Shown here piece by piece: positions 7,926 through 40,268 of a stretch of DNA of 64,000 bases; positions within the stretch are counted from its first letter, which is position 1, and each line of letters opens with the position of its first letter. The DNA is taken from positions 60,453,888 to 60,517,887 of the forward strand of contig NC_052020.1 of NCBI RefSeq assembly GCF_015832195.1, in the 5' to 3' direction. Below the pieces are notes generated by a model. It searched no databases. It was not told the DNA's origin and saw nothing but the letters and a program-made list of their open reading frames with translations. The stretch comes from Motacilla alba alba. Its lineage: Eukaryota; Chordata; Aves; Passeriformes; Motacillidae. The position numbers and the translations under genes were made by a program.

Positions 7926-20555
<12,630 letters not shown>

Positions 20556-26021: not shown

Positions 26022-29000
26022 ATGGCGGCGGCGCTGAGGGGCCGCGCGGGCCCGGGCGCGGCGGCGGCGCTGTGGCGGCTCCAGAGCCGGCGGCGCAGGT
26101 GAGGCCGGGGCAGCGGGGCGGGCCCGCCGCACGCTGCCCCTGACCCTAACCCTGTCTCTTCCCCTGTCCTAGACCCTTACCTTCACTTTATCCTTGTCCC
26201 CTATCCCTGTGATTTCCCCTCTCGCCTCACCCCTTCCCCTCTCTTTTTACCTTTACTCATCTCCTTCCCCTATCCCTTTCCGTATCGTTTTTCCCTATCC
26301 TTTCCCCCATCCCCTGTCCCTCTGTCCCGTATCCTCTATGTTTGCTATATCACCTTTTCCTCTCTCCTATATCCCCTATATCCTTTATCTGCTGTCTCTA
26401 TCATTTCCCCCTTTACATTATTAACCACCTCTATCCCCTTTCCTCTATCCCGTTTTCCTTTCCCCTATATCCTGTTTATTCCTTATATCCCCTTCCTTTA
26501 TATCCCCTCTCCCTATCGTATCCCCTTTCCCTCTCCCCTCTATTTCTGACATCCCCTGTCCCCACCCTTTCCCCCTATCCCTTGTCCCTGTCCCCATCCC
26601 CAGGCCGTGCTGATGCCGTGTCCGTGTCCCTGCAGCTCCCCTGTCCCTGTCCCTTGTCCCTGTCCCCATCCCCGGGCCGTGCTGATGCCGTGTCCGTGTC
26701 CCTGCAGCTCCCCTATCCCTGTCCCTGTCCCCATCCCCGGGCTGTGCTGATGCCGTGTCCGTGTCCCTGCAGCTCGTTCGACGTGGCCGTGGTGGGCGCG
26801 GGGATCGTGGGCCTGGCCGTGGCCCGGGAGCTCATCCAGCGCCATCCCTCGCTGGCCTTGGCCGTGCTGGAGAAGGAGCAGGAGCTGGGTACGGAGTGGG
26901 ACAGGGAGCCACAGCCACAGGAGGCTGTGCCCGAGGAGACGCTGCCACAGCCTCAGCATCCCACGGATATCTGTGTGCAGGGGTCAGGAGCTGAGGGGGA
27001 GCTGCTGCCCTTGTTGTTGGAGTGGGTGATGGATTTCTCATTTCCAAGCCAGGCTGGACAGGGCTTGGAGCAGCCTGGGGTAGGGGGAGGTGTCCCTGAG
27101 CATGGCAGGGGTGGGATGGGGTGATCTCTAAAGTCCCATCCCAAACCATCCTGGGGTTCTGTGATAACTCTCACAGAATTCCCAGAATCACTGGGTTGGG
27201 AGAGACCTTCAGGATCAAGTCCAACCCAGCCCCAACAGCTCAACTCAACCCTGGCCCCCAGTGCCACATCCAGGCTCTGTTAAACACACCCAGGGATGGT
27301 GACTGCACCACCTCCCCAGGCAGAACATCCCAGAACTTTATCACCCTTTCCATGAAAAACTTTCTCCTAACATCCACACTTGGTGCAGCTTGAGGCTGCA
27401 TGTCAGTGCCCAGACTCTCCCCTGCCAGGGATTTCTTCCACCCTTCTCCCAAGGCCACGTCCTTCAGCAGAGTTGTCCTCAGGCTGTGCTCCTCTGCTGG
27501 GCTGCAGATTGGGAGTTTGAAGTTAAAACCTGCGGAGCGTTGCTGCTGCACGGTGTGTGCTGTGAACGTAACTGCCAGTTAAATCGGATCAATGATTCGC
27601 GAGAGCCAAATTATGGTAAAATAACAAAATATAAATTCTATTTCGCGTTCGAATGACAAAATCAACAAAATTTGGGTCAGCCACGAATCAGACAGAGTCT
27701 AGCCCGGGACTGGGCTCTGGGTGTCACACGCACACAGCTCTGAGCCCCTGCATGCATCAGCGTGGTCATGGCACACCATAGCCGTGTCTGAGGCCAGTTC
27801 TTAGACTCTTTTTCTCGCCGCAGGCCAGGATGTCCTGTGTCCTTTTCTTAATCAAGTGAGTCCCAAAGCTTCTCCTGTCCCAGGATAAAGCTATCAGGTG
27901 GAAGATGGTCCAGCTCTCGATGTCTCGGGAATAATTCATTGGCTTCTTGTCTCCTGCTAGACAGAGCTTGAGATACACAAAACCCACCTCTGGGAAATAC
28001 ACAAGCTAAACAGTCCCTTCCTGGCAGTTCTTTGCATGTTAAGGGATTTCCCAGAAACAGACCACAGGCCTGAATGGATTACCATGGACATGTCATCTCC
28101 CCTGGCTGTCTGCAGCCAGGTGTGCCACTGATGGCTGACTCTTTACTTGGTTAAAATTTCTGAAACCCTGTGCCGCTTCCCCTCCTTCACGTGTAAGTGT
28201 AGTCAGGCTGTGTGTGGTGTGTGTTTGACAGCAGGTTTCCCAACCCCTGCAAGCCACTTCCCTTAGCTTTTGGGAACTTGCCTGGGCAAGCCTCCTGTGA
28301 CAGTGAGATAGACCCGAATTTTCCATAACCACTCTAAACTTATTCTATTATCTTCACATCTTTAACTATATTATATTCATCACGTCATTTTATTTTCTCA
28401 CGAGTTTTGACCCGTTTATAACAGTGTGCAAGCTGCAGTGTGGCTGCTGGGGCTGCAGCAGCTCGGGAATGGCAGGACAGAGGACACGGAGGGTGAATAA
28501 CCAGCATAAGGAATAGTGCAGCTTCTGGGAGGGCACAGGCGGGTCCTGCATGGAGCTGGCAGAATCCCAAGGGACAGACCTCAGTGATTAACTCCTAACA
28601 GGACCTGTGAGCCCAAAATCTTGTCTTAAATAGCTCCATCAGCCTGGCTATGACTTGCTTTGGAGATGTTCCATGAGTGATAGAAAATGAGTGTTTATCC
28701 CCAAGACACACAGCTGTGTGAGTGCCGAGCAGGAATGACCTTTGGCCATCCACACCTTAAAGAGGGGCAAGAACCTGACCAAATGACTTCAGTAAAAATG
28801 TTTGTGGTGTTTTTCACCTGTATTTTATCGATTTGCAAAGAGGAAATAGCAACCTAATCCAGTTCACAAATACTCAAAAATCCTGCCAGGCCTGCTAGCA
28901 TGTCCAAAGGAATTGTGGATTGCACAGATACTATGTTAGATGAGGCCCTAGGAGATGCAGTTCATTGTAAAAATTGGATTTTAAAATTTAATTTTAGCTT

Positions 29001-32000
29001 GTTTTGATTGATTGGTTTGTTCTTGAAGGAAAAAATTGTTGTTTTAGGGTTTTTTTCCCTGTTCAGGCTGTGATGGATTATCATTAAGCAGAGCTGGCTG
29101 TGTCAGTGTTTCTCTAACCTTTTGAGGCCAGGGGAGGAATTAATGGTGCAGTTCTCTCACTTGATCATCCCTTAAAATGCTGATTTAAGGCAGGACCTCA
29201 ATTAACTCACTTTTCTGACAGCAGAAGTGATTAAGTGGGAACAAATGAGTTCTAACAACGTGTTCTTCTTTCTCTTTAGCCCATCACCAGAGTGGACACA
29301 ACAGTGGTGTGATCCACAGTGGGATTTACTACACCCCTGGCTCCCTGAAGGCCAAGCTGTGCGTGCAGGGGGCAGCCCTGTGCTACAAATACTGCGACCA
29401 GAAGGGGATTCCCTACAAGCAGTGTGGGAAGGTACAGGAATCCCTGTGATTCCCTGCTTTACCTGGAAACTGGAGCTCTGTGATGTGTGGTACCACACGG
29501 GGCACAGGCCTGCTTGTGGCTTTTCTCCCCACTCTCCAAGCTGCAGATAGTTTTATTCAGAAATGTGTGTAATGTACATAATCCCCTCCTGCCCTCAAAT
29601 CACCCCTTCCTGCTGATGAGTCTCAGTTTGGGAGAAGGGTTTTCATGATCTCCCCACCGTGTCTTCGTGCTCTGAAGCATTTTTAATTCAGTGCAATTTT
29701 TAATTTGGTGCAAGGGGAGAACCAGGGCTGGGCAGAGCATGCCAGGTGTGGTGAGGCTCAGGGAAACAGAGCTCTGTATCCATGTCCCAGTTGTTCCTAG
29801 CACTCCCTTCAGGTTTTTGGTCTCTCACTGGGCACTGAGCTGCTGTTTCCACAGGACTGTCTATCCTGACCCCAAGGTTTTGGCCCTGAGGGATAAATTT
29901 GAGTTCCGTGGTTTTTCTCGGAGCTGTGTCTGGTCCGTGCTCCCTCTGCTGCCACGCCGGGCACAGGGTGGCACTGTGGGTCCGTGCAGCAGCACACCCG
30001 AGGGGACAGCCTGCTCAAAGCTCCTGGCCTGAAGGGGTCGGCTGGAGCCTGGGGGAGCTGAATTTGTGTCTTTTGTACCAACAGCAGGGTGGCAGCAGGA
30101 GCAGGGCAGAGCCTGTCCCCTGTGCTGGCACTTCTGCGCCACCTCCAGTGCTGGGGACAGCTCTGGGCTCCTCACAGCAAAGCCACAGGAGGGACTGGAG
30201 CATGTCCAGGGAAGGGAAAGGAGCTGGGAAGGGAATGGAGCACCAGGAGAGGCTGAGGGAGCTGGGAAGGGGCTCAGCCTGGAGCAAAGGAGGCTCAGGG
30301 GGGACCTTGTGGCTCTGCACAGCTCCTGCCAGGAGGGAGGTCGGGCTCTGCTCCAGGGAACAGGGACAGGAGCAGAGGGAATCACCTCAAGTTGCACCAC
30401 GAAGCTTTAGCTTTGATACTGGGGGAAATTCCTTCCTGAAAGGTTTGTCCAGCCCTGGCACAGCTGCCCAGGGCAGTGCTGGGCTCACCATCCCTGGAGG
30501 GATTTACAATCCATGTGGGTGTGGCCCTGGGGGACAGGGGTCAGTGGTGGCCTTGGCAGTGCTGAGGGATCAGTTGGACTCTTACAGAGCTTTTCCAACC
30601 CCAACAATTCCATGACGCTCCCCTGGCAGTGCATTCCAGGGAAGATAATGGTGCAGCTTCACCAGCTGTCCCTAGAGCAGCCCCAGGCTTGAGGAGCTTC
30701 CCAGCTGTGGGGTGCCAGAGCAGACCTGGCATGGCAGGACCATGGTGTGTGCACACCTGGCACAGGTACTTCTGTCTGGAGTTATCTCCTGGGATAGCTG
30801 GGAACAGGCTCCTGGTTAAATGAATCTGGTGCAGTTCCACTCAGAGCGTGTCAGAACATGTCCTCACTCTCTTATCCAGGCTCTTGGAGCTTTGAACATC
30901 TTGGGTCGAGTTCAGCTTTACTCCTGACAGCATCCCAGTGGATCTTTCAATTCAAATTCTCTTCTCTCACACGCAGACTTGTAGTCTCAGGCTGCTTCTG
31001 GCAAATATTGTGGATTGATTTGAACTCAAACTACAGTTTAGCATTTGTTTATTGTTTCTCTGTGATATATTAGTGCTTCCTCAGCCACAGAATTCTGTGC
31101 ATTTAATGGCAGCAACCACTCTTTGCCCCCTGGATTTACTGTTCACTCGTTCACTGTTGCTTGTGCTTGATGCCAAACTTGCCCTGCTCTGTTTTGCTCA
31201 CTGCTGTGCCTTTTGTTCCTCTCCCCAAGCTGATCGTGGCCGTGGAACAGGATGAAATTCCACGGCTCAAAGCTCTGTATGAGAGGGGGCTGCAGAACAA
31301 CGTCCCCGGGCTGAAACTCATTGGAGCCAAGGAGATCCAGGAGAAGGAGCCCTTCTGCAGGGTAAGGGGGGGCCGTGCTTCTAATTAGCTGATTGTAAGA
31401 GCTTCTGATTCTAATTGTAAGAGCTGTTTCTCAGGTGAAAACATCTTTTAATGTAACACAAATCCTTTTCTGGCCTTGAGGTTCAAGTTCAGAAGAGGCT
31501 GGAAATTCCTTCCCGTCCATAAAAGTGGATTTGGGTCAAGCCCATCTCAGAGCAGTTGGTGAGGTTGTTAGGTAGCGCTTCCCAGCCTGTTTGTTTTCAC
31601 AGCAGGAGGAATGTGTGGAGCGTGTGGAACACAGCTTTGTTACTGATGGTTTGTCTTTGTTTGAAAGGAGAAGCTGGGTGTGAATTCCCTGTGCTGTGTC
31701 ACCTGGCAGCTCGCTCTGCTGCAGCTCTGTCCCTTAGGAGTGGCTGTAGGTACAGACAGAAATCTTCTGGAAAAGAATCTTTTTCAATCTTTTCATTTTC
31801 CCCGTGAACCTTTTGGATCTGCTCCTTAAAACATCCTTGGAGTGCTCCACATCCAGCTGGACACGAGGGAACGCAGCAGCACTCCCTTCCCGGGCAGTGC
31901 AAGATTCCAGATGAAATATCCCAGCCCTCACTCTTGCTGTGTCTCTGAAACCTTGCCAGGGACTGATGGCCCTCGATTCCCCCTACACTGGCATTGTGGA

Positions 32001-35000
32001 TTACAAACAGGTGGCCCAGTCCTATGCCAGAGACTTCCAGGAAGCAGGGGGGACAATCCTGACGGATTTTGAAGTCACAAGCGTGGAGATGGCCAAAGAG
32101 AGTCCTGCAGAAAGCGAAGATGGTAAGGCTGGATCGTTTTTGCCCTCAGTTTGCTACAAAGATTTTGTTCAATTGTTTCAGCTGAAATGACATTTCTGAA
32201 TCTTTCTGTCCCCTAGGCATGAGAAAAAAGGCAAAATTATCTCAGTGAGGGTATTCAGCAAACTCACTTGGGTTTTTTTTGCAGGCAGGTCACCCTTCAG
32301 CTGAAACATTTAAAGCTGATGGAAGAAAGTGAGAGTAAAATGGAGAAATAAAGTTGTTCCCTCCTCTTAAAATCAGAATTTATCTGAATCTTGCGTGTTT
32401 ATTCTTGTGATAGTGATTTTCCTTACCCCGAAGGCAGGTTGGATCTGTGCTGGCACACAGAGGGAAGAATAAAACCCCTGTTAATTAATAAATACAGTCA
32501 TGTCCAACAACGTTAATTATGACAAGAGTAGCTCTTGCATAGCTTGGAAGATATTCCAGAGGAAAATTCCTTCCTGGTGACAAGCTGCTTGTTCTGTCAG
32601 CTCTGCTTGTTCCAATAATTCCTCTCTTGTCTAATTCCCTTTCAGGGCTGAAGTACCCAGTCATTGTCAGGAGCAAAAAGGTAAGGGTGAAAAAGAAGCT
32701 TGCATTCCTTCCAGGAAGCTGCTTCTCCTTTTCTTCAGTTTTTTTTTTTCTTTTTTCTTGTGAATTAATAATTAAAAAAAAAAAAAGATTAAAAATCTGC
32801 TGTTCAGCAACACGACCAGCTTGATAAAACAGCTGCAGTCAGTTCTGCAATGATAAATAGAAATAAATAATGATGATGATGATGATGTCAAATATGAAAC
32901 CATAGCTTCCTGCTGCCTGGCATTTCACATCCCCTGTCTGCTCTGTTTGCACAGTCTGATGCTCGTGCTTCCATGACTCCTTTCTGACTCGTTCAGCTGC
33001 TGACAAACAGACACCTCACGTTCACTGCCGGGCTCTGGCAGCCGTGAGATGATGAGGAGGCTTTGGGCATCATTTTATTGGCATTTTATCAGCAGAGCTG
33101 CTGCAGGTTCAGGTGGGAACATCTGCAACCCACCCAACTCCACAGCCCCTCTGGTCATCTTCCCATTTCATTCTGCTTTTTTTCTCCTATTTTTTTTTTT
33201 TTTGCTCTTTCAATAAAAAGAGCAAAATAATAAATAAAATAAAAATAAAAAGTAGCTTCCAAAATCTGTTAAGATTTTTTTTGCACCAAACAGATATTTT
33301 TTTTCATGCAGATATTTATCAGTTGAAAAAAAAATCAATATCAAGTTGAAAATAAATATTTAAAAGCAGATAGGAAGCTAAATAAGTAGATAATAGGTTT
33401 TGATTTTGATGGATTTATTTATTTGGATGGTAAAGGTGTTTCATGTTTAGCAGCTCTCCAGACCTGTGTGCTGTCAGTCTGTGTAGCTGCTCCCACCCTG
33501 TGGGGTCAAATCAATGAACATCTTTATTTCACTTATTTAAATAAATTATTTTTTAAAAATAAGTTAAATAAATTGTATTTATTTAAATAAATGCCTGTAG
33601 GGCTTTTCTGGGTGTTTTTTTAGCAGATAAATAGAATTTTGATGTGTTTTGGGTTTTTTTTAATAAGTGAAATAATTTTTAATATAAGTTAAATAATTTT
33701 AAAATATTTTTAATAAGTTAAATAAATTTTATTTCTTTAAATACACCCCTGTGGGGTTTCTGGGTGTTTTTAATCAGACCCATAGAATTGTGCTGTGTTT
33801 TTTCGGTTTATTTAAAGAAATCAATTTTATTTCTTTACATAAACACCTGTGAGGTTTTTGGGTGTTTTTTTATCAGAACAATAGAATTTTGATGTATTTT
33901 GTTGGTTTTATTTAAATAAATCAATTTTATTTCTTTAAATAAACGCCTGTGAGGTTTCTGGGTGTTTTTTAATCAGATCAATAGAATTGTGATATGTTTT
34001 GGTTTTTAAAAGAAGTTAAATCAATTTTATTTCTTTAAATAAATACCTTTGGGGATTTTTGGGTGGTGTCTTATCAGATTAATAAAATTTTGATATGTTT
34101 TGTTTTTTTTTTAAATAAATGAAATATTTTTTTTTAATAATTGAAATAATTTAAAGGTGTCCCTGTGGGGTTCTGGGTGTGTTTCTCAGCCCATGGACCA
34201 TGCTGTGCTTTGCTGGTTTTATTTAAATAAATCCATTTTATTTCTGTAATCCACCCCTGTGTGTTCCGGGTGTTTCTCAGCCCATGGACTGTGCTTTGTT
34301 GGTTTTTTTAGTTAAATCCATTTGATTTATTTAAATAAACCCCTGTGTGTTTCGGGTGTGTTTGTCAGCCCGTGGACTGTGCTGTGCTTTGCTGGTTTAT
34401 TTAAATAAATCAGTTTTATTTATTTAAATAAACCCCTGTGTGTTCCGGGTGTTTCTCAGCCCATGGACCGTGCTGTGTTTTGTTGGTTTATTTAAATAAA
34501 TCAATTTTATTTATTTAAATAAACCCCTGTGTGTTCTGGGTGTTTCTCAGCCCATGGACTGTGCTGTGTTTTGTTGGTTTTTTTAGTTAAATCAATTTGA
34601 TTTCTGTGAATCCAGCCCTGTGGGGTTCCGGGTGTTTGTCAGCCCACGGACTGTGCTGTGCTTTGTTGGTTTATTTAAATAAATCCGTTTTATTTATTTA
34701 AATAAACCCCTGTAGTGTTTCGGGTGTGTTTCTCAGCCCATGGACTGTGCTGTGCTTTGCTGGTTTTATTAAAATAAATCCATTTGATTTCTGTAATCCA
34801 CCCCTGTGTGTTCCGGGTGTTTGTCAGCCCATGGACCGTGCTGTGCTGTGCTGGTTTATTTAAGTAAATCGGTTTGATTTATTTAAATACCCCCCGTGTG
34901 TCCCGGCTGTTCCCGAGCCCATGGACTGTGCTGTGCTGGTTTATTTAAGTAAATCGGTTTGATTTATTTAAATACCCCCCGTGTGTCCCGGCTGTTCCCG

Positions 35001-38000
35001 AGCCCACGCCGTGTGTCCCTAGGGCGGGCGGCTGTCCTGCGCTCACCTGCTGGCGTGCGCGGGGCTGCACTCGGACCGCGTGGCGCGGCTGGGCGGCGGC
35101 AGCGCGCAGCCCCGGATCGTGCCGTTCCGCGGGGATTACCTGCTGCTGAGAGCGGAGAGACGACACCTGCTGAGGGGCAACATCTACCCCGTGAGTACCG
35201 GCTGTGGGGGCAACATCTACCCCGTGAGTACCGGCTGGGGAGGGGCAACATCTACCCCGTGAGTACCGGCTGTGGGGGCAACATCTACCCCGTGAGTACC
35301 GGCTGGGGAGGGGCAACATCTACCCCGTGAGTACCGGCTGTGGTGAGGGGCAACATCTACCCCGTGAGTACCGGCTGCGGGGGCAACATCTACCCCGTGA
35401 GTACCGGCTGTGGGGGGCAACATCTACCCCGTGAGTACCGGCTGCGGGGGCAACATCTACCCCGTGAGTACCGGCTGTGGGGGGCAACATCTACCCCGTG
35501 AGTACCGGCTGCGGGGGGGCAACATCTACCCCGTGAGTACCGGCTGCGGGGGCAACATCTACCCCGTGAGTACCGGCTGCGGGGGCAACATCTACCCCGT
35601 GAGTACCGGCTGTGGGGGCAACATCTACCCTGTGAGTACCGGCTGCGGAGGGGCAACATCTACCCCGTGAGTACCGGCTGCGGAGGGGCAACATCTACCC
35701 CGTGAGTACCGGCTGCGGGGGCACCGGCTGCCCGAGAGCTGCCGCGAGTGCGGGGAAAGAGCAACCCCCTGCTTGCCTCTGCCAGGCAGCGATCTGCTTT
35801 GGGACAGGGCGGCTTGGGTTTTGTTCATTTATTGTTCATTTGCGGGGGGGGTTGTTAAATTTTTGTTAAATTTTTGTTAAATTTTTGTTAAATTTTTGTT
35901 AATTTTTTGTTAATTTTTTGTTAATTTTTTGTTAATTTTTTGTTAATTTTTTGTTAATTTTTTGTTAATTTTGGGGGGTTTTTTGTTCAATTTTTTGTTC
36001 AATTTTTTGTTCAATTTTTTGTTAATTTTTTTTGATAATTTTTGATAATTTTTGGGGTTTTTTTGTTAATTTTTGTAAATTTTTTGTTAATTTTTTGTTA
36101 ATTTTGGGGGGTTTTTTGTCAATTTTTTGTTAATTTTTTTGTTAATTTTTTGATGATTTTTTGTTCATTTTTTGTTCATGTTTTGTTAATTTTTTTGTTA
36201 TTTTTTGTAAATCTTTTGTTATTTTTTGTTAATTTTTTGTTCATGTTTTGTTAATTTTTTGTTAATTTTTTGTTAATTTTTTGTTAATTTTGGGGGGGTT
36301 TTGTTAATTTTTTTGTTGATTTTTTGTTCATGTTTTGTTCATGTTTTGTTCATGTTTTGTTCATTTTTTGTTCATTTTTTGTTATTATTTTGTTAATTTT
36401 TGCTAATTTTTTTCTAATTTTTTGTAAATTTTTGTTAATTTTTGTTACTTTTTTGTTAATTTGGGGGGTTTTTTTGTTAATTTTTTGTTAATATTTGTTA
36501 ATTTTTTCTTAATTTTTTTTGTTAATTTTTTGGGGTTTTTTGTTAATTTTTTTGTTAATTTTTGCTAATTTTTTTCCAATTTTTTAAAATTTTTTGTTAA
36601 TTTTTGTAAATTTTTGTTAATTTTTGTAAATTTTTGTTAGTTTTTTTGTTAATTTTTTGTTAATTTTTGTTAATTTTTTTATAATTTTTTGATAATTTTT
36701 TGTTAATTTTGGGGGGGTTGTTAATTTTTTGTTAATTTTTTGGGGGGTTTTGTTAATTTTTGTTCATTTTTGTTCATTTTTTGGTTAATATTTTTGCTAA
36801 TTTTTTTTTTTTTTTTGGTTAATTGAAGAAAACATGAAAGTACCACATGGGGAGTTATTGCCAGTTGTTTTGTTTATGGTTTTAGTTTGGGGGGTTTTTT
36901 ATTTAATAGAGAAAAGATGGAATATCACATTGACACATATCCAGAAAACTCTGAATTATTTCTCTATGCCCTCAAATAAATCCGAATTGATTTTAGAAAA
37001 CTCTCAATTATTTCTCTAGGTCCTAAAATAAATCCGAATTGATTTTAGAAAACTCTCAATTATTTCTCTATGACCTCAAATAAATCTGAATTGATTTTAG
37101 AAAACTCTCAATTAGTTCTCTGTGACCTCAAATAAATCTGAATTTAATTTAGAAAACTCTCAATTATTTCTCTCTGTCCTAACATAAATCTGTAGGCAGG
37201 ATTCAGAAGTCAGGCCGAGAGGACACTGCATTATTATTTATTATTTAGTAATTCTAACAGTCCTGTTGAATCTCTTTGTTGCTGATCTGGACAGAGGGGG
37301 TGACTGTAACTCAGGAATTCACAGGTGACACTGGAGGGCTTTCCAAGCTCAGTGCTTCTGGGATAATGTTAATTAAACCCTGATGAAGGATTTACTCTTT
37401 TGTGCTAATACCCAACATCCAGATTTAGGGATTTTCCTCTCAACCTTATTTTTGAATGAGATGTTTTTATCATTAAAAAATAGATGTGGGAGAAAAGGGA
37501 ACAGCCTTTCTACCTGGGCTGGGGAGCAGCAATCCCAGCCAGAAAATGGAATTACAGAGCGAGTGGAGAGAATTCCTGGGGCAGCATTTTATCCATTCTG
37601 TCCATTTCAGTACTGATTTTCTGGAGATGAGATTGGCTTTGCCTGCTGAGCACTGGATCTTTGGAAAATTGGAATGCTGATCTCACCTGGGAACGATTCA
37701 GGATCCTGTCTTGGGATGGGAGGGAGGACATGGAACAAAAAAAGAACATGCAGCTTTAGCATTATTATTAGCATTATTATTAGCATTATTATTAGCATTA
37801 TTACTAGCATTATTACTAGCATTCACCAGGCCTGCTAAGTTCAGGCTGGTTTGTACACACTGTAAGGGTTTCCTAATATTTTATATTCCGTTTTATTGCA
37901 GTGTGGTTGCTGCTGGTGAATAACATCAGGGTTACACCATGAGAAATCACGTGGACTTTTTTCCCTCTGTTCCTTGTTTTCCTTTTCCCTAAAATCCAGC

Positions 38001-40268
38001 TTTGCCCGGCCCCGCTCTGTTCTGCAGGGGTTTCATTAATGACATGCCACAACTGCACAATTAACGGGCAACAAAACCAGCTCAGAGCCACTTCTGAGGC
38101 TCTGTGACTCAGAGTTTTGCTGCTGTGGGGGGCAATAAAGTGGCAGATTTGCTGTTTGCTCACTCCTGTGTCCCGTTCCAGGTTCCCAACCCTCGTTTCC
38201 CATTCCTGGGGGTCCATTTCACTCCCAGGATGGATGGCAGTGTCTGGCTTGGCCCTAACGCAGTGCTGGCCTTTAAGAGAGAGGGCTACAAACCCTTGGA
38301 CTTCAGCCCTGGGGACTTTCTGGACGCTGTCACCTACAGGTAATGCCTTGTGTTTGTGTCTGCTGGCTGCTCTTGTTGAAGTGAGAGCCACGGGAGCCCC
38401 TTCCTGCCCCAAATCCCGCTTTTCCTGCGGTTTTGGTGTGTTTAAAGACACTTGTGCTGCTGAGGGTGGACTTCCCGAGGCATTTGACTTCGTGTGGTCT
38501 CCTGTTTGAGTTTGCTAGCAGGACGTGTCTCAGCCGGTCTGGGAATGTGGCTGCTCCCTGGAAGGTGCTGGTGGAGCTGTTCCAGGCTGGGTTTGCGCTG
38601 TGGTAACTTCATCAACCTGGACAGCATCATGAAATACCTGCAGAGGGTGCTGGGACACAGAGCTGGGAATGTCCCCTGGAGAGAAGGAGGCTCCAGGAGA
38701 GCTCAGAGCCCCTGGCAGGGCCTGAAGGGGCTCCAGGAGAGCTGGAGAGGGACTGGGGACAAGGCCTGCAGGGACAGGACACAGGGAATGGCTGCCAGTG
38801 CCAGAGGGCAGGGATGGGTGGGAGATTGGGAACTGGGAATTCCCAGAGCAGCTGTGGCTGTCCCTGGATCCCTGGCAGTGCCCGAGGCCAGGCTGGACAG
38901 GGCTTGGAGCAGCCTGGGACAGTGGAAGTGTCCCTGCTCAGGTGGCTCCAAGCTCATCAGGTCCTGGAACACTTCCAGGACTGGGATTGAGATTAATCCA
39001 ACGCCACGGCTCTGTGAGCAAGGCTTGTCCTGGCAGAGAAGGACAAACCTGCATTTCCCACAGACAAAGCATGGTGTGATTCCTGATTTTGGGAATGGGA
39101 ACTTGTGTCCTGCATTGCATTTGCTGCCTTGTCCAGGTGCATTTGGAGGCAGCTGTGGCCTCAGTGCAGTTGTGTGTCCCCTTGCAGTGGGCTGTGGAAG
39201 CTGGTGCTCAGGAACGTGTCCTACGGCCTGGGGGAGCTGTACAGAGCCTTTTCCCTCAGTGCCCAGGTGAGGCAGCTGCAGAAGTTCATCCCTGAGATCA
39301 CCACCAACGATGTTCTCAGGTAAAGGAGGCTTCTTCTGTTTGGGAAATCTCCTGTTTGAACGGCAGAAAACGTGGCAGGGCTTTAGTCCCTTCCTCCAGC
39401 AAAATATGAGAGAGAAGCTTGGAGCTGCCTCCAGCGTGGAGGTCCCAGCACAGAAAGAGCCTGGAGCTCCAGAGGAGGCACCAGGATGATCAGGGGGATG
39501 GAGCAGCTCTGCTGGGAGGAAAGGATGAGCATTTTGGGATTGTTCAGCCTGGAGAAGAGAAGTGTTGGGGTGGCCTCATTGTGGCCTTGAGGAGAACCCG
39601 CAGAAAGATGGAGAGGGATTATTGACAGGGCATTGGAGGGGCAGGACCAGGGGGAACGGCCTCAGACTGCCAGAGGGCAGGGTTAGATGGGATATTGGGA
39701 AGGAATTCCTGGCTGGGAGGGTGGGGAGGCCCTGGAATAGAATTCCCAGAGCAGCTGTGGCTGCCCCTGGGTCCCTGGCAGTGCCCAAGGCCAGGCTGGA
39801 CACTGGGGCTTGGAACCAGCTGGGGGAGTGGGAGGTGTTCCTGCCATGTCAGGGGTGGAATGGGATGGGCTTTAAGCTCACAGGTTGGCCACCTCAATGA
39901 TCCCATGACTGTCAGATACCACCAGTCTGCCTCAGGAGTGTTAAATTCCCCGAAAAATGCTGTGTCTCCACTCCCTGCCCTCCTCACTGTCTCCCTGGAC
40001 ACCTCCTCACGGGAATTCATTTCCTGACACACATCTTCCTTCTTTTCTTCTCTCCTTTCCTTGCTTGTGCAGGGGTCCCTCTGGTGTGAGAGCCCAGGCC
40101 CTGGACAGTGAGGGCAACCTGGTGGATGACTTTGTGTTTGACGGGGGCTCGGGGGCCGTGGGGAGCAGGATCCTGCACGTCAGGAACGCGCCTTCCCCCG
40201 CCGCCACCTCCTCCCTGGCCATCGCCGCCGCCATCGCCGACGAGGCCCAGCGCCGCTTCCAGCTCTGA
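26022..40268 (+). CDS. L2HGDH: L2HGDH, L-2-hydroxyglutarate dehydrogenase, mitochondrial (complete, ten coding exons)
   Basis: FAD-dependent mitochondrial enzyme oxidising L-2-hydroxyglutarate to 2-oxoglutarate, a metabolite-repair step. Coding exons: 26022-26098, 26773-26888, 29280-29431, 31230-31361, 31960-32122, 32646-32680, 35023-35190, 38182-38339, 39188-39319 and 40073-40268 (TGA at 40266-40268). They sum to 1329 bases, 442 codons plus stop; the human protein is about 463. Exon 1 is an Ala/Arg-rich targeting peptide. Exon 2 holds the FAD-binding GAGIVG (residues 34-39) and ends the first Rossmann unit at LEKE. Exon 3 has [14 protein letters not shown]. Later landmarks are [40 protein letters not shown] and [15 protein letters not shown]. 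All phases close. Exon 7 is far more GC-rich than its flanks and is enclosed by tandem repeats on both sides. The exon 2 acceptor and exon 7 donor are themselves repeated. Confidence 0.96.
26134..26590 (+). repeat. pyrimidine-only-like tract in L2HGDH intron 1
   Basis: About 450 bp nearly devoid of G on the plus strand: irregular CCCCTATCCCTTTCC-type units. Purine-rich on the other strand, so able in principle to form triplex structure. Confidence 0.85.
26575..26775 (+). repeat. 65-72-bp tandem repeat carrying the L2HGDH exon 2 splice acceptor (three copies)
   Basis: Unit: GTCCCCATCCCC(A/G)GGCC, GTGCTGATGCCGTGTCC, GTGTCCCTGCAG|CTC. The acceptor AG occurs at 26634-26635, 26706-26707 and 26771-26772. 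Only the last is followed by open exon 2 (CTCGTTCGAC). Spacings of 72 and 65 bp mean use of an upstream AG would add 65 or 137 bases and shift the frame. Confidence 0.93.
27045..27168 (+). mobile_element. CR1 LINE 3' fragment
   Basis: Sense tail with CCAGGCTGGACAGGGCTTGG and ATCTCTAAAGTCCCATCCC, ending at TTCTGTGATAAC. Directly abuts an opposite-strand CR1. Confidence 0.85.
27172..27460 (-). mobile_element. CR1 LINE 3' fragment, other subfamily
   Basis: CACAGAATTCCCAGAATCAC, GGGTTGGGAGAGACCTTCAG, ATCCAGGCTCTGTTAAACAC and the CCATGAAAAACTTTCTCCTA block. Tail-to-tail with the preceding copy; in L2HGDH intron 2. Confidence 0.85.
27560..28430. mobile_element. possible ERV/LTR-derived block in L2HGDH intron 2
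   Basis: Sequence unlike its surroundings with several CG dinucleotides in AT-rich context, and a distal segment rich in short T/A runs. No coding remnant of gag, pol or env was recognised. Classification is a guess. Confidence 0.3.
28431..29279. other. rest of L2HGDH intron 2
   Basis: Ordinary AT-leaning intron; nothing recognised besides the poly-T/AG acceptor region just before exon 3. Confidence 0.6.
30125..30612 (+). mobile_element. CR1 LINE 3' fragment, long
   Basis: Same subfamily as the copy at 21.65 kb: GGGACTGGAGCATGTCCAGG, GGCTCAGCCTGGAGCAAAGG, GCTTTAGCTTTGATACTGGG and AGCTTTTCCAACCCCAACAA. In L2HGDH intron 3. Confidence 0.9.
32852..32888. repeat. (GAT)n / AAAT microsatellite
   Basis: AAATAAATAATGATGATGATGATGATG in L2HGDH intron 6. 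Confidence 0.85.
33170..33350. repeat. T-rich and A-rich low-complexity sequence
   Basis: Long T runs followed by AATAAAATAAAAATAAAA. It leads into the ~91-bp array. Confidence 0.75.
33490..35022 (+). repeat. ~91-bp tandem array filling the end of L2HGDH intron 6 and abutting exon 7
   Basis: About 15 copies of a unit combining TTTATTTAAATAAATC, (A)AACCCCTGTGTGTT, CCGGGTGTTTCTCAGCCC and ATGGACTGTGCTGTG. The GGGTGT landmark recurs at about 34268, 34354, 34447, 34538, 34630, 34722, 34815, 34905 and 34990 (85-93 bp apart). Earlier copies (33.5-34.1 kb) are longer, near 100 bp, and more AT-rich. The two units nearest exon 7 are nearly identical and GC-richer. The array's last partial unit supplies the exon 7 acceptor (CCGTGTGTCCCTAG). 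Confidence 0.93.
35023..35190 (+). CDS. L2HGDH: L2HGDH coding exon 7, GC-rich exon enclosed by tandem arrays
   Basis: 168 bp (56 codons, residues 226-281, both ends in phase 0) encoding [33 protein letters not shown] and RGNIYP. Codon third positions are nearly all G or C, whereas the preceding kilobase is mainly A/T. The sequence aligns in sense with the conserved L2HGDH segment, so the exon is real despite its setting. Its last 15 bases (GGCAACATCTACCCC) are the exonic half of the downstream repeat unit. Confidence 0.92.
35174..35735 (+). repeat. 33-bp minisatellite made of the L2HGDH exon 7/intron 7 junction (16 donors)
   Basis: Unit: GGCAACATCTACCCC|GTGAGTACCGGCTGTGGG. GTGAGTACC donors begin at 35191, 35224, 35259, 35292, 35327, 35364, 35397, 35431, 35464, 35498, 35533, 35566, 35599, 35632, 35667 and 35702. 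Spacing is 33-37 bp, most often 33 (11 codons) with one- or two-base G-run variants. Translated, a 33-bp unit reads [11 protein letters not shown] without a stop. Exon 8 continues in phase 0. Confidence 0.97.
35819..36832 (+). repeat. 1-kb T-rich array, (GTTAATTTTTT)n
   Basis: Some 80-90 short units of GTTAATTTTTT and variants (GTTCATTTTTT, GATAATTTTTT), interrupted by GGGGGGTTTTTT. Almost no C on the plus strand for 1 kb, an extreme strand asymmetry. Confidence 0.95.
36944..37195. repeat. 52-bp tandem repeat, five copies
   Basis: Copies start at 36944, 36996, 37048, 37100 and 37152, each GAAAACTCTCAATTATTTCT then CTATGACCTCAAATAAATC and GAATTGATTTTA. Exact 52-bp spacing suggests recent expansion. 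Confidence 0.93.
37755..37824. repeat. 12-bp tandem repeat (GCATTATTATTA)n
   Basis: Five to six units in L2HGDH intron 7; the last two change one T to C. Confidence 0.9.
38660..38985 (+). mobile_element. CR1 LINE 3' fragment
   Basis: AGAAGGCTCC-type start region, GGGGCTCCAGGAGAGCTGGA, GGGACTGGGGACAAGGCCTG, then AGGGCAGGGATGGGTGGGAG and GTGGAAGTGTCCCTGC. Between L2HGDH exons 8 and 9. Confidence 0.9.
39404..39912 (+). mobile_element. CR1 LINE 3' fragment, long
   Basis: Longer sense copy beginning near GAGAGAAGCTTGGAGCTGCC, with TGTTCAGCCTGGAGAAGAGA, GGGTTAGATGGGATATTGGG and the GGCTTTAAGCTCACAGGTTG end. Between L2HGDH exons 9 and 10. Confidence 0.88.

Follow-up and report, generated by a model that had tools for sequence, protein, structure and literature searches.

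Tandem repeats lying across an exon-intron boundary have been described in the human CBS gene. The VNTR c.1444_1467+7(16_21) is reported as a 31-bp unit located at the exon 13/intron 13 boundary and present in 16-21 copies (PMC2630376). The repeat is variable, and higher repeat number is reported to go with lower activity (PMC5188458). CBS also hosts 844ins68, described as a tandem splice-junction duplication of which one copy is strongly favoured (PMC2630376). The accelerated human exons described by Berglund et al. 2009 feature clustered AT-to-GC changes and many amino-acid changes, limited to one exon on a scale of about 1 kb (PMC2631073), and GC-biased conversion is reported for birds in general (PMC4290106). 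Exon-limited AT-to-GC bursts and boundary VNTRs are each already known.

Exon 7 of L2HGDH, in the 64,000-nt stretch of DNA analysed here (the window), is compared with these systems in what follows. The reading that we favour, if with reserve, is that of an intronic minisatellite spanning the exon boundary in an intact, songbird-like L2HGDH gene, and adjoining an exon hit by a GC-biased substitution burst. The burst would have provided the microhomology from which the array arose, and the first donor would be the productive one.

The donor array of L2HGDH exon 7

The genes recognised in the window by protein similarity, and the L2HGDH exons flanking the array, are the following. 

8161 to about 20555, + strand: CDKL1
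about 22.8-25.7 kb, - strand: DMAC2L
26022-40268, + strand: L2HGDH
35023..35190, + strand: L2HGDH exon 7 (168 nt, phase 0-0, GC 0.74)
38182..38339, + strand: L2HGDH exon 8, starting in phase 0
from 44743, + strand: SOS2, start only

L2HGDH has ten exons whose splice sites are consistent, and use of donor 1 of exon 7 leaves an open frame of 442 aa. Among the homologs listed, the best is the cluster of Molothrus aeneus (92% identity along the full length), which makes the window songbird-like. Seven of eight checked short bird L2HGDH models (398-402 aa) lack exon 4 (P0014, P0030, P0036, P0039, P0040, P0042, P0043), and the eighth, P0048 (Gallus), lacks exon 9. The absence of exon 4 may come from repeated in-frame skipping or from noise in the annotation.

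The end of exon 7 and its 5' splice site are reiterated in tandem.

35174..35721, + strand: 16-unit tandem array, each unit made of the exon 7 end and the 5' splice site (TRF)
35174..35179, + strand: GGGGCA within the exon, presumed to have seeded the array on the left
35718..35723, + strand: GGGGCA immediately past the 16th unit, presumed to have seeded the array on the right

TRF assigns to the array 16.1 copies and a score of 884. The 16 donors (GTGAGTACC) start at 35191, 35224, 35259, 35292, 35327, 35364, 35397 and 35431 (donors 1-8), and at 35464, 35498, 35533, 35566, 35599, 35632, 35667 and 35702 (donors 9-16). A previous sequence-only reading had reported, at exon 7 of L2HGDH and in phase 0, 16 copies of a unit made of exon end and donor, spaced 33-37 bp. 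All this is borne out by the donors and by TRF; its array end at 35735 has to be moved to near 35721. The 33-bp basic unit, equal to 11 codons, that it proposed is found in seven of the 15 donor-to-donor units, and the other eight depart from this length, being 34 bp (two), 35 bp (five) or 37 bp (one) long. Its view that variation is confined to the G run, as expected from slippage, was nearly right. The 30-base core (16 bases before and 14 after each donor) features one substitution across the 16 units, at the base preceding donor 14, and the remaining variation, T/C changes and insertions of A and G, falls in the G-run spacer. Since one core substitution is found among 16 units, the array is either young or homogenised. 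Each unit has one GGGGCA and a further copy follows the last unit, making 17; slippage or unequal exchange involving one copy in the exon and one in the intron would leave this pattern.

Repetition of this kind is restricted to few junctions. When each junction was probed with 24 bases (up to 4 mismatches, 2.5 kb on each side), all but two of 22 donors and all but one of 21 acceptors turned out to be single-copy. The probe matched 25 times at the donor of CDKL1 exon 5, 16 times at that of L2HGDH exon 7 and twice at the acceptor of L2HGDH exon 2. An exact 24-base search of viral contigs with the unit of the exon 7 array gave no matches. Hairpins hiding or exposing the donors at the RNA level were also considered, and were discarded as the stability of four folded stretches did not exceed that of shuffled sequences (z = 0.67, 0.70, 1.57, 1.28).

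The other two junctions are embedded in the following arrays.

15952-16957: CDKL1 exon 5 donor array (26 donors, 39-bp unit, 272-bp higher-order repeat)
26570-26775: three tandem copies of the acceptor of L2HGDH exon 2 (introns ending at 26635, 26707 and 26772)

A second donor array in a different gene had likewise been announced from the letters, and it corresponds to that of CDKL1 exon 5. The first six of its 26 donors retain both frame and C-terminus. An insert at the CDKL1 exon 5/6 junction was found in one of 119 spanning homologs, a model from Equus asinus, and is unrelated to the repeat. Selection on donor bases within the CDKL1 array was evaluated on the 39-bp units (20 of 25) and rejected, the longest invariant run being of 21 columns (p 0.07). 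The two upstream copies of the exon 2 acceptor would yield products of 63 and 39 aa. The array regions analysed span 7.8% of the window, and three of 43 junctions, those just listed, lie inside them versus 3.4 expected. There is hence no enrichment among the 14 array regions considered, which were hand-picked from 77 TRF rows, mainly for long units, and leave out for instance 35852-36824. Arrays meet junctions at chance rate, which makes the capture of a donor less remarkable than it might seem. Intron 6 hosts a 91-bp array (34179-34996) that nearly reaches the exon 7 acceptor and includes eight acceptor-like TTT[C/G]TCAG motifs. An AT-rich 11-bp array of about 89 copies (35852-36824) is found in intron 7, downstream of the donor array.

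Predicted use of the 16 donors

The products predicted for the donors are as follows.

35191..35199, + strand: donor 1, 442-aa product
35224..35232, + strand: donor 2, 453-aa product with a stop-free, in-frame insert of 11 residues before exon 8
35259..35710, + strand: donors 3-16, frame lost

Translation confirms the earlier claim that donor 2 adds 11 residues in frame before exon 8, in phase 0. Donor 3 causes a frameshift, and the 383-aa product ends at a stop located 51 nt upstream of the last junction. A common stop within the array is reached from donors 4-16, giving 304 aa. Because this stop precedes the last junction by 321 to 731 nt, decay of the corresponding transcripts is expected. 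The frame is kept by two of the 16 donors only (donors 1 and 2), which is at odds with the in-frame arrangement of productive tandem-donor splicing. Donor strength does not serve as a discriminator, as 15 of the 16 scores are equal and that of donor 14 is slightly higher, with the scoring matrix used here. Donor 1 is expected to dominate splicing, with some loss to decoy donors. As part of the favoured reading, donor 1 would make the enzyme, and the other donors would mostly be unproductive decoys.

It is possible, though rather unlikely, that the identical donors compete on more equal terms, downstream ones being often used and leading mostly to premature stops, so that more repeats would result in less L2HGDH output. 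The near-equal scores fit such a scheme, and so do the early stops reached from 13 of the 16 donors. Plentiful U1 can moreover favour, among duplicated donors, the one nearest to the intron; long exons are however usually disfavoured. CBS provides a precedent, as more repeats are reported there along with lower activity (PMC5188458). The intron after exon 7 offers a natural competition among 16 donors, and the adjacent gene CDKL1 one among 26, which would test how splicing chooses among identical sites.

Divergence of exon 7 and its junction with exon 8

Compared with Molothrus aeneus, 19 of 56 residues differ in exon 7 and 15 of 386 in the remaining nine exons (p 2e-10). The same holds versus Zonotrichia (19/56 in exon 7, 17/342 in the rest) and Geothlypis (19/56 and 34/386), though in the latter exon 5 is also high (15/54); versus Geospiza exon 7 differs at 14 of 40 aligned residues. 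The direction of changes was deduced from the shortest codon paths leading from the amino acids of relatives to the codons of the window, and refers to proteins only. So measured, 13 of the 19 exon 7 changes versus Molothrus are explicable by AT-to-GC substitutions without any GC-to-AT step, six are neutral and none needs GC-to-AT. The 15 changes in the other exons are distributed differently: four are of the AT-to-GC type, three are neutral and eight need GC-to-AT (p 0.00035 for the last class). Both traits of accelerated exons, an excess limited to one exon and an AT-to-GC bias, are hence found at the amino-acid level versus Molothrus. These data suggest, as a further part of the favoured reading, that exon 7 went through a GC-biased substitution burst, which the sequence-only reading does not mention.

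Exon 7 and the array form a sharp GC island.

35000..35790, no strand assigned: GC island, GC 0.68, CpG observed/expected 0.75

In 200-bp windows GC ranges from 0.33 to 0.49 over the 600 bases that precede the island, and from 0.15 to 0.24 over the 1000 bases that follow it. The island extends over the array, as judged by base composition of the window. At fourfold sites of exon 7, G or C is found at 35 of 37 positions; other L2HGDH exons are also GC-rich at such sites (exon 2, 1.0; exon 9, 0.91; exon 10, 0.90). The idea that array exons form a GC-ranked set was abandoned. By CpG density L2HGDH exon 7, L2HGDH exon 2 and CDKL1 exon 5 occupy ranks 3-5 of 24, and they rise to ranks 1-3 only when three first exons are left out, in a post hoc comparison.

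Eight residues, all in exon 7, were private versus the first 120 homologs, and five of them fall at sites uniform in those 120. All eight are however present among 116 further proteins, selected for similarity to the exon 7 stretch, and privacy is therefore no longer strong evidence. Among the added proteins R268 is found in 84, R271 in 97 and H273 in 97. Eight of these proteins are from named eukaryotes, mostly marsupials (R268 in five, R271 in six, H273 in seven); the same residues are otherwise found in many unnamed or bacterial proteins. As the new residues occur in other L2HGDH proteins, the changes are consistent with an enzyme that still works.

This bears on whether exon 7 diverged because constraint was lost, by mis-splicing, skipping or failure of the gene, with the GC bias as a secondary effect. 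Skipping of exon 7 (168 nt) leaves an open frame of 386 aa, and changes at five uniform sites may point the same way. We nevertheless hold this to be very unlikely, as the central 14 residues of exon 7 are identical to those of Molothrus, no change needs GC-to-AT, several of the new residues recur in other L2HGDH proteins, and frame and splice sites are intact in all ten exons.

The exon 7/8 junction is where any insert would be placed. Changes in length within 5 residues of it were found in none of 236 L2HGDH homologs (120 initial and 116 added), and the searched unit peptide motifs were absent from all 356 proteins examined. At the junction itself, P281 and V282 show no variation among 30 sequences, and in the Molothrus protein model (mean pLDDT 85.8) the junction falls where a predicted strand (residues 278-281) ends. 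Human Pro302 probably aligns with the last residue of exon 7. In cells, the human Pro302Leu enzyme is reported to have activity not above control and to be mostly unprocessed, which the authors attribute to folding and import (PMC12385959). The insertion point thus looks intolerant of inserts. The array could in principle be a source of variant enzyme carrying 11 additional residues, through use of donor 2 and possibly of others, and donor 2 is indeed in frame and free of stops. Yet only one of the 15 extra donors qualifies, eight of 15 units break the 33-bp length, and the homologs and the inactive human variant speak against it; we regard this as highly improbable. The expectation of the sequence-only reading that inserts should matter as variant proteins is not supported, given the loss of frame from donor 3 onwards, the constant length of homologs around the junction and the reported intolerance of the human junction residue (PMC12385959), though some use of donor 2 in splicing may occur. 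Finally, assemblies are error-prone at tandem repeats, but an assembly or sequencing artefact of repeat or exon is extremely unlikely, as unit variants are interspersed, unlike what one collapsed unit would give, and exon 7 retains frame, splice sites and a conserved core.

Origin of the array and related systems

The favoured reading, a boundary-spanning minisatellite next to a GC-biased burst, can be broken down into four steps. A local hot spot of conversion or recombination would have introduced AT-to-GC changes across exon 7. This step is suggested by amino-acid changes and composition, and by the known behaviour of conversion hot spots as described in PMC2631073 and PMC4290106. The exonic G run, so lengthened, would then have come to match an intronic GGGGCA about 33 bp downstream; the flanking copies are observed, and the earlier state is a plausible reconstruction. 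Exon end and donor would have been multiplied to 16 copies by slippage or unequal exchange, the G run continuing to slip, a mechanism to which the pattern of the units points. Lastly, exon definition may direct splicing largely to donor 1, the remaining donors, of equal strength, giving rise at low level to mostly decay-prone transcripts. The burst probably preceded the array, because the exon end is G-rich in all 16 copies, whereas residue 276 is lysine in relatives.

A tight causal link between burst and array is opposed by CDKL1 exon 5, which has a larger donor array and no such burst. It differs from Molothrus at three of 67 residues, none private versus 120 homologs. L2HGDH exon 2 differs at five of 38 residues, two of which are not AT-to-GC. 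As neither exon features a comparable burst, arrays and bursts are not generally coupled. Carried to its full extent, the model would have a songbird hot spot both rewrite the exon and breed a ladder of 5' splice sites via G-rich microhomology, the length of the ladder setting enzyme dose. This extension is doubtful and clearly improbable; if true, one hot spot would alter both the protein and the dose of L2HGDH. The burst, seen in one lineage of a conserved enzyme and adjoining an array, makes conversion, rather than selection, a clear candidate for the driver of protein change.

In the part covered of the literature on boundary and CBS repeats, biased conversion and L2HGDH variants, no description was found of the L2HGDH array or of avian boundary minisatellites; nor was the conjunction of a boundary repeat and an AT-to-GC burst at one exon found in the portion covered for these two topics. 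L2HGDH exon 7 resembles the exons of Berglund et al. for the excess limited to one exon, the AT-to-GC bias and the many amino-acid changes, as these are described in PMC2631073. Those exons are human, whereas exon 7 is avian, is judged at the protein level and is adjoined by a minisatellite, a word absent from the text of that paper. CBS 844ins68 has its closest counterpart in the acceptor copies of L2HGDH exon 2. It is described as two 68-bp copies at another type of junction, in contrast to the 16 copies of 33-37 bp of the exon 7 array.

The closest relative is the CBS VNTR. In both cases the unit joins an exon end to an intron start (24 + 7 bases, going by the CBS name), is about 30 bp long and resides in an enzyme gene. 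CBS units are reported as invariably 31 bp, in contrast to the L2HGDH units. Variability in copy number and an effect on activity are reported for CBS, whereas the L2HGDH array is known from one sequence. An exon burst is found beside the L2HGDH array and goes unmentioned in the passages of PMC2630376 on the CBS VNTR. All 16 L2HGDH units hold exon end and 5' splice site, and the first copy lies at the real exon end. On anatomy, the array belongs with the splice-junction-spanning VNTRs of the CBS type.
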